The notes under the pieces: model-generated
Databases searched by the model: none
Told to the model about the DNA's origin: nothing
What the model saw: only the letters and a program-made list of their open reading frames with translations
In this document: piece after piece, positions 6,912-37,185 of the stretch
Numbering within the stretch: position 1 is the first letter of the stretch
Layout: the number at the start of each line of letters is the position of its first letter
Assembly: GCA_913009315.1 (NCBI GenBank)
Contig: CAJVZA010000011.1
Coordinates: forward strand, 1-37,185
Length of the DNA stretch: 37,185 nucleotides
Source: an uncultured Hippea sp.
Lineage (GTDB): Bacteria > Campylobacterota_A > Desulfurellia > JAADFJ01
Direction of reading: 5' to 3'
Translations under genes and position numbers: made by a program

Positions 6912-6945
6912 GTGAGACCACTGCACAATAAGCAAATTCACAGCT
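6912..6945 (+). repeat. Terminus-like repeat (TGAGACCACTGC family)
   Basis: 34 bases match 36847-36880 at 32 positions. Related copies are at 36758-36787 (26 of 30), inverted at 36883-36902, and partially at 15297-15308. The short sequence seen as an inverted pair suggests the terminal inverted repeat of a small mobile element (MITE or decayed insertion sequence). No transposase is present. Confidence 0.7.
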
Positions 6946-6970
6946 TTTTATGAGGTTTTCTATAGGGCAA

Positions 6971-13828: not shown

Positions 13829-15300
13829 TGTTTTTAAACATCGGACTTATTCTTTCTATAATATCGGTATATCTGATGCTTCTTGGAGCACTGGAGACCG
13901 TTCCTCTCGCGGTATCGCTAATTTATCACGAATCTATTGCTGCACTGGCCGAATCAATCGGTATTACATTGGGATCGGGCGCATTGCTATACATAATAGC
14001 AAAAATTTTCAGGAACAAGCAAAAGGAACTTCGCTATCGTGAGGGGTTTCTGGTTGTCACTCTTATCTGGTTAGTGTCTGCATTTTTCTATGGATTACCG
14101 TTTACAATTTCCGGAGTTCTTCCAAATATTGTCGACTCATATTTTGAAGCGATGAGCGGTTTTACGACAACCGGAGCAACTGTTATTAATAATCTGTCAA
14201 ATTTGTCCCACGGTCTGCTTTTTCTAAGAAGTTACACTCAATGGCTTGGCGGAATGGGTATCATAGTTCTCGCAGTAGCAATATTTCCATTTTCAGGTGC
14301 CTCAGGGGTTCAGCTTTTTTCCGCAGAATCAAGCGGTATTACACTAACAAAAATTAAACCGCGCATAAAAGAGACTGCATTAAGTTTATGGATAATCTAT
14401 TTCGTGCTCACATTAGCCGAAATAGTGCTGCTTATGCTTGGAGGAATGAATCCTTTTGACGCTATTATCACTTCACTTTCGACACTTCCCACCGGAGGAT
14501 TTTCAAACTATAATAACAATATAGGCCATTTTCCATCCTCCTATATACGACTCATTATAATACTTTTTATGATTTTAGGCGGAATGCAATTCACGCTTCT
14601 TTATAATATTATCAAAAATCCGAAAGATGCAGTAAAGAAAAATTATCTAAAAGGTGAAACAAACGTATATCTGTTTATTATCCTGGTTTCAAGCCTTTTG
14701 ATCTTTATCTCCAACAAGATAAATTTTTCATCATACAGTACAATCTTTCAGTCCTATCTTGCCTCTCTGTTTACAACCGTATCACAGATGACATCCACCG
14801 GCTTCACGGCGTATAACTACGGCAACTGGACGATATTTTCTCAGCTTCTGCTTTTGTCAGTAATGGTAATAGGGGCAATGGCAGGATCTACAGGAGGAGG
14901 TATAAAAGTTATAAGATTTATAGTAATATATAAAGCTATAAAAGTAGAACTTTACAAAATGATACATCCCAGCCTTGTCAAGGAGGTGAAGATTCCGGGA
15001 TACGAAATGACTCAGGCAATTGTCAGAAACACACTTATTTTTTTCGGTATCTATATTTTTGCAGTTATTATTAGTTCATTGATATTGACATTTTTCAATA
15101 TAGATATCGTAACAGCCATAAGCGCCACAATTGCCACTCTATCAAACGCAGGACCCGGTCTGGGAGGTGTGGCTCCCCCAAATACATACAGTTTTTTCTC
15201 AACTATTCCCAAAATCGTATTAACTTTTGATATGCTGATAGGAAGACTTGAATTCTATACGGTTATGGTAATATTTCTGGCGATATTCTGGAAAAGATAA
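13828..15300 (+). CDS. trkH: Trk potassium uptake membrane subunit
   Basis: Potassium channel-like transporter, 490 residues and about 10-12 membrane helices. The four pore loops carry the filter glycines: SGFTTTGATV, LPTGGFSNYN, MTSTGFTAYN and LSNAGPGLGGV. The order and spacing fit TrkH/TrkG/KtrB, and the neighbouring full-length TrkA with duplicated RCK domains argues for Trk rather than Ktr. The stop codon (15298-15300) lies inside the sequence ATAATGAGACCA that matches the end of a dispersed repeat, so the 3' end has been remodelled by, or was a target for, that repeat. Confidence 0.93.
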   Translation: MFLNIGLILSIISVYLMLLGALETVPLAVSLIYHESIAALAESIGITLGSGALLYIIAKIFRNKQKELRYREGFLVVTLIWLVSAFFYGLPFTISGVLPNIVDSYFEAMSGFTTTGATVINNLSNLSHGLLFLRSYTQWLGGMGIIVLAVAIFPFSGASGVQLFSAESSGITLTKIKPRIKETALSLWIIYFVLTLAEIVLLMLGGMNPFDAIITSLSTLPTGGFSNYNNNIGHFPSSYIRLIIILFMILGGMQFTLLYNIIKNPKDAVKKNYLKGETNVYLFIILVSSLLIFISNKINFSSYSTIFQSYLASLFTTVSQMTSTGFTAYNYGNWTIFSQLLLLSVMVIGAMAGSTGGGIKVIRFIVIYKAIKVELYKMIHPSLVKEVKIPGYEMTQAIVRNTLIFFGIYIFAVIISSLILTFFNIDIVTAISATIATLSNAGPGLGGVAPPNTYSFFSTIPKIVLTFDMLIGRLEFYTVMVIFLAIFWKR

Positions 15301-15461
15301 TGAGACCATTACTGATCTATGAACGATCATACCGAGCCTCAAATTAGCCTCTGCTTCTGCGCTGCAGACTTTTGGGCAGGATACCCTGCTGCTATTGCCT
15401 GCAATTTATGCTTTACCGACGGATTCGGACTCTCAATTCGAAACACTCAAAATTAATAGAG
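15297..15461. repeat. Remnant of a TGAGACC/GGACTCTC element
   Basis: The left end ATAATGAGACCA (15297-15308) is identical to the outermost 12 bases of the element end at 36894-36905 read on the minus strand. The right part (15427-15461) matches the 35-base motif at 6971-7005 in 31 of 35 positions. Between them lie about 118 bases with small stems such as GCAGG/CCTGC (15376-15389). No open frame is present. It looks like a decayed short mobile element inserted right after trkH. Confidence 0.55.
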
Positions 15462-15495
15462 GTACTCTAAAAAATATATAGATCGGAAATTTTTC

Positions 15496-35444: not shown

Positions 35445-36761
35445 ATGAATTTAACACCAAAAGAGATTGTAAGAGAGCTTGATAACTATGTAATAGGACA
35501 GGAAGCGGCAAAAAAAGCAGTGGCGATTGCGCTTCGGACACGATGGAGAAGACAGCAGCTGCCTAAGGATCTTGCTGAAGATGTCCTCCCCAAAAATATC
35601 CTTATGATAGGCCCAACCGGTGTAGGAAAAACTGAAATCGCCAGAAGACTGGCAAAATTAGCTGATGCCCCGTTTATTAAAGTGGAAGCATCAAAATATA
35701 CCGAAGTTGGATATGTTGGAAGAGATGTAGAGTCCATGATAAGAGATTTGACATCAACAGCCGTGAACATGGTCAAGAAATCGGAGTCAAAAAAAATTAA
35801 GCCAAAAGCAAAAAAAGCCGCCGTTGAAAGAGTGATTTCGTTACTTATGCCTCATGATAAAGATGAGCAGGAACATGCGGAATCCAAGGCAAAGATAGCC
35901 AAATTGCTCAAAGAGGGAAAGTTCGATAACAGTACCATAGAACTTCATACATCAGGTACTCCCTTACCTCCGGCAGCAATGGGTATATTTGGGGGCAATA
36001 TTGATGAATTATCAAACAATATTCAAGATATGCTGAGCAACCTTATGCCTTCAAAAAAAAGCACCCAACGGAAAGTCGGGGTCAAGGATGCAATTGAAAT
36101 ATTAACTGAAGAAGAGACTGCCAAAATGCTTGATCAGGGAAAAATAAACATGAAAGCAAGAAGTCTCGTAGAAGAATCGGGCATTGTTTTTATAGATGAG
36201 ATAGACAAAATAATCAATGATTCAAAAAATGGAATGCCGGACATATCACGAGAAGGCGTTCAAAGAGACCTTCTTCCTATCGTTGAAGGAACAGATGTTT
36301 CAACAAAATACGGTATTGTAAAAACGGATCATATTCTATTTATCTCTGCCGGAGCTTTTCATCTTTCAAAACCATCAGATATGATACCCGAACTGCAGGG
36401 CCGCTTCCCCATCAGGGTCGAATTAGATGCACTTGATAAACAGGCATTAAAGAAGATACTTACTCTGCCGAAGAATGCACTTATAAAACAGTACATCTCA
36501 CTTATGAAAACCGAAAATGTCATAATCGAATTTTCCGATGAAGCGATTGATCTGCTCTCGGATATTGCGGTTGAGCTGAATCAGACATCAGAAAACATAG
36601 GAGCCAGAAGGCTTTATACGCTGCTTGAAAAACTTCTTGAAGAACTTTCATTTCACGCCCCTGAAATAACCGATCAAAAAATCAATATAGATGCAGCATT
36701 TGTAAAAAAGCAGCTTGAGCCGTTAATGAAAAGCAAAGACTTGAGGGAATACATATTATGA
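35445..36761 (+). CDS. hslU: ATP-dependent protease ATPase subunit HslU
   Basis: AAA+ unfoldase for HslV, 438 residues. Walker A is GPTGVGKT (56-63), pore loop GYVGRD (87-92), the intermediate domain about 105-240, and Walker B IVFIDEID (245-252). The C-terminal tail LREYIL matches the hydrophobic HslU tail that inserts into HslV, so the protein is complete. Its stop codon (36759-36761) lies in the first bases of a dispersed repeat, ATGAGGCTACTGC. AAGAAGG after the hslV stop serves as Shine-Dalgarno. Confidence 0.96.
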   Translation: MNLTPKEIVRELDNYVIGQEAAKKAVAIALRTRWRRQQLPKDLAEDVLPKNILMIGPTGVGKTEIARRLAKLADAPFIKVEASKYTEVGYVGRDVESMIRDLTSTAVNMVKKSESKKIKPKAKKAAVERVISLLMPHDKDEQEHAESKAKIAKLLKEGKFDNSTIELHTSGTPLPPAAMGIFGGNIDELSNNIQDMLSNLMPSKKSTQRKVGVKDAIEILTEEETAKMLDQGKINMKARSLVEESGIVFIDEIDKIINDSKNGMPDISREGVQRDLLPIVEGTDVSTKYGIVKTDHILFISAGAFHLSKPSDMIPELQGRFPIRVELDALDKQALKKILTLPKNALIKQYISLMKTENVIIEFSDEAIDLLSDIAVELNQTSENIGARRLYTLLEKLLEELSFHAPEITDQKINIDAAFVKKQLEPLMKSKDLREYIL

Positions 36762-36851
36762 GGCTACTGCACAGTAAGCATATTCACAAAACTCAAAGGT
36801 AAATTATAAGACTGATTTCGACTCTTAATTTGAAATGCTCGGAATTATGAG
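36758..36851 (+). repeat. Element end plus degenerate 35-base motif after hslU
   Basis: 36758-36787 matches the 6912-6945 family at 26 of 30 positions, and its second to fourth bases are the hslU stop codon. 36819-36851 is a diverged copy of the GGACTCTCAATTTGAAA motif that runs directly into the next TGAGACC copy. The layout matches the remnant after trkH. Confidence 0.6.
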
Positions 36852-36902
36852 ACCACTGCACAATAAACAAATTCACAGCTGCTTATTGTGCAGTGGTCTC
36901 AT
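36847..36902. terminator. 20-bp perfect hairpin between hslU and the convergent gene
   Basis: Two perfect 20-base arms (36847-36866 and 36883-36902) are inverted copies of the TGAGACCACTGCACAATAA repeat with a 16-base loop. It lies between two convergent genes, with AT-rich DNA on the right (ATTATAATTTTATC) that includes a short T-run. It could serve both strands as a transcription stop, although its origin appears to be a mobile-element terminus pair. Confidence 0.55.
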
Positions 36903-36909
36903 TATAATT

Positions 36910-37185
36910 TTATCTTTTAATAATATCCTGCTGTTCTTTGAGCAGATCGCCCACAGGTTTTCCCTGCCCGGCTACCGATTTTATCCTTTTTATCAATAAT
37001 GCTCTGTCCATTCGATTTCTCATCATTTTGTAATAGTTGATACATTCATCAAAAAGGTCAGTTGCCTTCTTACTGTCAACCGGCACTGCCGAGTGTTCCG
37101 AAGCGGCTATACATAGAACATCCGAATCATCTTTATCAAGCATCATCATAATTTCGGATAGTTCCAAATCTCTGTTTTCAAATAA
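36910..37185 (-). CDS. dnaG: Probable C-terminal end of DNA primase, cut by the window edge
   Basis: The frame is open from the window end, giving about 91 residues before the TAA at 36910-36912; a TTG at 37167 is not needed as a start because codons continue upstream to 37185. The helical sequence, with ENRDLELSEIMMMLD, ECINYYKMMRNRMDRALLIKRI and a terminal LLKEQQDIIKR, resembles the helicase-binding C-terminal domain of DnaG. This domain is weakly conserved, so the call is tentative; another helical C-terminus is possible. It converges on hslU. Confidence 0.45.
   Translation of the reverse strand, partial: LFENRDLELSEIMMMLDKDDSDVLCIAASEHSAVPVDSKKATDLFDECINYYKMMRNRMDRALLIKRIKSVAGQGKPVGDLLKEQQDIIKR

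Follow-up and report, generated by a model that had tools for sequence, protein, structure and literature searches.

A miniature inverted-repeat transposon at the stop codon of hslU in an uncultured Hippea sp.

The 3′ end of hslU

The stretch of DNA analyzed here (the window) comprises 37,185 nt of contig CAJVZA010000011.1 from an uncultured Hippea sp. Near its right-hand end, hslU and a convergent gene are separated by a composite repeat whose parts, along with related sites elsewhere in the window, are listed in Table 1. The region was compared with the rest of the genome to which it belongs (G000, 1.74 Mb) and with the other two genomes of the genus, the sister genome G001 and the genome G002.

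Table 1. Features at the end of hslU and at related sites, in window coordinates
Feature	Position	Strand	Remarks
Second family A end in the window	6913..6965	+	Exact 19-mer; family B repeat starts inside
trkH native stop, TAA	15298..15300	+	Outside family A
Degenerate family B repeat downstream of trkH	15322..15469	+	Source of a misleading resemblance at its left edge
hslU	35445..36761	+	Open reading frame; AAA_2 Pfam match; hslV-like neighbor (proteasome family); last residue Leu (TTA, 36756-36758)
Left target-site duplication, TTA	36756..36758		Doubles as last sense codon of hslU
Family A insertion (miniature inverted-repeat transposon)	36759..36901		143 bp; composite and partly decayed
Left inverted-repeat end	36759..36789	+	31 bp; 5 differences from the family form; supplies the hslU stop; TGAGGCTACTGCACAGTAAGCATATTCACAA
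Remnant resembling a family B end, inside the insertion	36815..36847	+	GACTCTTAATTTGAAATGCTCGGAATTA; direct comparison with L026/L009 and with G001 downstream of hslU
Palindromic mini element, right end of the insertion	36848..36901		54 bp; TTA on both sides; RNA fold −33 kcal/mol (z = −9.8)
Right target-site duplication, TTA	36902..36904
TAA, presumed former hslU stop	36905..36907	+	Third codon of the empty-site join
3′ part of convergent gene, read as dnaG (DNA primase)	36910..37185	−	Stop at 36912-36910; named by reading the complete G001 copy

Read in frame, hslU ends ...GAA TAC ATA TTA TGA, and this TGA (36759-36761) is bases 1 to 3 of an element of a repeat family that we call family A. 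The original prediction had taken it for bases 2 to 4; the TGA does lie in the repeat end, but the A that precedes it closes the TTA duplication. The 19-bp end at 36759-36777, TGAGGCTACTGCACAGTAA, has three mismatches to the family A 19-mer, and the opposite end of the insertion, ...GTGCAGTGGTCTCA, finishes at 36901.

Joining the G000 flanks through a single TTA gives ATA TTA TAA, and the hslU of G002 (about 83% identical), which carries no insertion, reads ATA TTG TAA. The last residue is leucine in all 22 relatives that retain the 3′ end of hslU, and the gene's own TAA or TAG follows it in 21 of them (for L175 the alignment ends one residue early, and its DNA reads CTA TAA); the exception is G001, which has the element's TGA. 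There the left junction is identical to that of G000 (TTA followed by TGAGACCG) and decayed sequence follows, the agreement with family A extending over 8 bases only. Because the left junction is the same, the insertion is probably older than the split between G000 and G001. On these comparisons, the element's TGA has taken the place of a probable older hslU TAA, and the C terminus of HslU is unaltered, in keeping with the original prediction that the protein retains its tail LREYIL. The convergent dnaG stop begins 2 nt past the TAA at 36905-36907, such that in the reconstructed empty site (36905-36912) the two convergent stops lie just 2 nt from each other; with the insertion in place the separation is 148 bp.

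The repeat family, its target, and its mobilizer

Family A is defined by a 19-mer end, TGAGACCACTGCACAATAA. At up to three mismatches, G000 contains 169 such ends and the reversed control gave 0; the window alone has 4, against 0.01 expected. At up to two mismatches there are 136 in G000, 118 in G001, and 3 in G002, and each of 58 other genomes has at most one match. Copies were examined in the stretches around listed matches, so that those with two to three mismatches are under-sampled. The elements take the form of palindromes of 49 to 57 bp, units of about 158 bp or about 265 bp, and longer versions, with another repeat nested in some of them.

Several observations define the nature of these elements. 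They are bounded by 19-bp terminal inverted repeats that occur as inverted pairs throughout; they are short and free of transposase, no open reading frame of at least 25 amino acids lying wholly within a 265-bp copy; and many dispersed copies are present in both G000 and G001. Perfect 3-bp duplications flank 20 listed elements (12 TAA, 7 TTA, and 1 TGA), a tally in which the hslU locus is counted twice, once for the 143-bp unit and once for the 54-bp palindrome inside it; some two-ended copies have no matching duplications. Family A is thus a family of non-autonomous miniature inverted-repeat transposons (MITEs). Position −4 is an A in 104 of 124 unique G000 ends, and the flanks have the profile A-T-W-A. 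Together with the duplications, this profile establishes the target as A-TWA-T, of which the central TWA is duplicated.

The palindromic mini elements of 49 to 57 bp, such as that at 36848-36901, consist of barely more than two ends, and several have 3-bp duplications; they appear to be mobile by themselves. A rule that their lengths are multiples of three (51, 54, and 57 bp in G000) was dropped in view of one 49-bp element in G000 and 53-bp elements in G001. Many G000 contigs (e.g., C9, C12, C13, C21, C53, C64, C66, and C75) end about 100 to 150 bp into a family A copy, which means that the repeats break the assembly and that the copy numbers are lower bounds. One of these contigs (G000:C21, L020) starts on its minus strand with AGATCGGAAGAGCGTCGTGT, an assembly artifact that we take to be sequencing-adapter sequence. 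Exact family A ends are also found in metagenome-assembled genomes labeled Chlorobiota, Campylobacterota, Sulfurospirillum arcachonense, and Sulfurovum (L093, L094, L102, L103, and L106), hinting at either a wide spread or binning errors; in L093, L102, and L103 the bases inside the end resemble the 265-bp element.

A truncated transposase (PF05598, with PF01609 just below the cutoff) begins some 140 bp in from a family A end at G000:C15:3373. Among NCBIfam models, those for IS1182 and IS5 rank first for this protein, both below the cutoff, and among plasmid sequences it comes closest to an IS5-family transposase of Aliarcobacter cibarius (WP_151029581.1; 56% identity over 97%). The Aliarcobacter open reading frame lies between AGAGACCACTGCAAATTAG and an inverted TGAGCCCACTGCACAACC, each with TAT on its outer side, and the ends that flank it are like those of family A (AGAGACCACTGCA / TGAGCCCACTGCACAA). 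A search of the three genus genomes with PF01609 and PF13586 found no complete insertion sequence with exact family A ends and only the one truncated copy, none of the other PF01609 matches in these genomes being a transposase bracketed by a family A end. Searches for the transposase in G001 and G002, in the other 24 genomes examined from the phylum, and in viral contigs found none. Subgroups of the IS5 family duplicate AT-rich targets of 2 to 4 bp, the duplication being TNA in the IS1031-like group; family A duplicates TWA. Given the truncated copy and the Aliarcobacter ends, an IS5-type transposase is a likely mobilizer of family A.

Insertion at stop codons

We put the probability at roughly 0.85 that the hslU insertion is a family A MITE that was once moved by an IS5-type transposase and that inserted at A-TWA-T. 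Both inverted ends of family A open with TGA and carry a TAA, in another frame, at bases 17 to 19. The element inserts at A-TWA-T with duplication of the central TWA, and since TAA is itself a TWA triplet, stop codons are natural targets. An insertion that duplicates the TAA stop itself leaves the gene its stop, with a TGA added behind (hemE and proC); one that duplicates the last sense codon makes the element's TGA the new stop and does not change the protein (hslU and gltX); and one whose duplicated triplet spans the stop out of frame extends the protein by a few residues, for example (Y/N)ETxAQ (L240 and L246). Insertions of these kinds probably have little selective effect and persist.

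At 21 gene-facing family A ends, an in-frame stop lies between −3 and +16 relative to the start of the element. Three of these gene ends, for which Pfam supports the names, were compared across all three genus genomes. At hemE, G001 reads GGAAGTAA, a 158-bp element, and then TAATGTGAAAAATTCC, the empty sites being GGAATAAGGTGAAAAATTCC in G000 and CAATAAAGTGAAAAA in G002; at proC, G001 reads ACAGATAA, again a 158-bp element, and TAATTGGTTTTGAATATGG, with empty sites ACAGATAATCGATTTTGAATATGG in G000 and GCAGATGATTGATTTTG in G002. In both G001 genes the insertion has duplicated the native TAA stop. The gltX gene repeats the hslU arrangement, with the element's TGA as its stop and an unchanged protein: GAAGCATTA is followed by TGAGACC in G000 and GAAGCGTTG by TGAAACC in G001, and the empty site in G002 is GAAGCGTTATAGC. 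The hslU and gltX insertions appear to be common to two species. For both genes, empty sites in a relative show that an element is able to provide a stop codon without harm to its host gene, as had been proposed.

A hemerythrin-like gene, named by reading its sequence, ends ...TCA followed by TGAGACC in G001 and ...TCG TAA in G000, and out-of-frame insertions append short tails such as ...GFYDYETPAQ (L240). Most family A copies are located away from gene ends, elsewhere in intergenic DNA. One 265-bp element sits in the middle of a formate-dehydrogenase-like gene of G000 (G000:C43:9261-9525; L117:2962-3226), the G001 copy of which (L104) is uninterrupted at that site.

Native stops hold 12 of the 38 testable gene-facing ends in G000 and G001, against 5.4 expected from the target motif, in a per-interval test that kept one duplication and weighted positions within 200 nt by that motif; the P value of about 0.001 is rough, as several versions of the test were tried with a home-made, window-trained gene caller, and the result is mostly driven by G001. 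By genome, the counts are 9 against 4.05 in G001 (P = 0.003) and 3 against 1.33 in G000 (P = 0.12), where the stop cases L143 and L157 are without a clean duplication. An earlier version without the 200-nt limit gave 8 against 3.2 in G001 and 2 against 0.5 in G000, hslU being omitted because of insufficient flank. For insertions no more than 300 nt from a gene end, weighting by the observed flank profile predicts about 5% (G000) or 8% (G001) on the stop and 1 to 2% on the last codon.

An excess of this kind would follow if the transposase or a host factor, for instance one tied to the ending of translation or transcription, directed insertions to stop codons or gene ends beyond the requirement for A-TWA-T, and the combined figures and those for G001 favor such targeting. 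We nevertheless consider it unlikely. The nearest genes face the elements with their 3′ and 5′ ends about equally often (52:44 in G000 and 40:45 in G001), which rules out a general preference for gene 3′ ends; the excess in G000 alone is not significant; and purifying selection against other sites would yield an equal excess. Selection is less likely to remove insertions at stops than insertions elsewhere, so the excess needs no recognition of stops, and tolerance rather than recognition would seem to lie behind it. The best reading is the target motif combined with tolerance, any extra preference for stops being at most about twofold. The suggestion that the element prefers stop-codon-like targets, which was to be checked by the distances of its copies to the nearest stop codon, therefore survives insofar as A-TWA-T includes TAA stops and a modest excess at stops exists, but not as a specificity for gene ends, given the near-equal facing counts, the position of most copies elsewhere in intergenic DNA, and the mid-gene copy.

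It is also conceivable, if doubtful, that the element has evolved to be stop-compatible through its TWA target and its TGA-first ends (with TAA in another frame), which would make the twofold excess a real strategy and not a by-product. If so, insertion at the stop or one codon before it would spare the protein, and the transposon could spread through compact genomes by way of stops.

It is improbable that the repeat at the end of hslU is not a transposon but a host structure, namely a shared terminator or mRNA-stabilizing hairpin of the convergent hslU-dnaG pair. A very stable hairpin (36844-36905, z = −9.8) does lie between the two genes, but its sequence recurs at about 100 other places with 3-bp duplications and is absent from G002; moreover, the palindrome has no match to an Rfam family or to a U-tract terminator. 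A later terminator role for this palindrome, acquired by what we regard as a family A MITE, is possible.

The original prediction further held that hslU and trkH terminate at one shared point within a common repeat, citing a 12-base identity, ATAATGAGACCA, between the trkH region (15297-15308) and the minus-strand element end (36894-36905). The identity is present, but a decayed family A copy at trkH is scarcely credible and trkH was rejected as a second family A site, given that it shows 7 mismatches over the 19-bp end, that G001 trkH has the same native TAA followed by different bases, without TGAGACCA, and that a family B repeat lies downstream. Allowing up to two mismatches, the window contains 6 matches to the 12-mer where chance predicts 4.7. 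By these comparisons, the resemblance at trkH is a coincidence; the shared position holds instead for hslU and gltX. The proposed comparison with orthologous gene ends lacking the element thus bore out hslU, which is empty in G002, and not trkH. Family B is a second dispersed repeat with ends of approximately GGGCAACTCTATTAAT and 42 matches in G000, and it nests within family A copies (in the window from about 6966 onward, and in L017 and L026).

Significance and relation to known systems

These results, which include empty sites in sister species, show that a small transposon can occupy the stops of conserved genes (hslU, gltX, hemE, and proC) while the protein stays unchanged and that the element's own TGA can become a gene's lasting stop. 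This helps to explain how a 1.7-Mb genome tolerates about 100 copies, and it advises caution in that the 3′ end of a gene may be transposon-derived. Should the excess at stops exceed what tolerance provides, it would pose a testable question about target choice by IS5-type elements.

Family A resembles the IS5 family and its MITE derivatives in the PF05598/PF01609-type transposase behind one of its ends, its short AT-rich target, and the like ends found in Aliarcobacter. It differs from E. coli IS5, whose 4-bp target is written CA/TAG/A (PMC11677980), in that the duplication is 3 bp (TWA) and only a truncated transposase is present in G000. A phrase search of the literature, incomplete in its coverage, found no paper on MITEs overlapping stop codons. 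MITEAba12 of Acinetobacter, which contains stops in all six frames, has an end that can fuse to a gene and supply its stop (PMC6382973); the fusion described cost the protein 398 residues, whereas several family A fusions keep the protein whole or lengthen it by about six residues. In Streptococcus pneumoniae, 36 annotated genes take the stop at their very 3′ end from a BOX repeat, with no strong evidence of truncation (Croucher et al. 2011, PMC3049150). Family A is like BOX in being a small dispersed repeat that supplies a stop codon, a likeness of stop-codon behavior only, and differs in the base-by-base record available here, which comprises the 3-bp TWA duplication, the TGA at the very tip of the element, and the empty sites in sister genomes. 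A stop-supplying repeat was therefore already known from the BOX precedent, and what the present case adds is unusually clear empty-site evidence.
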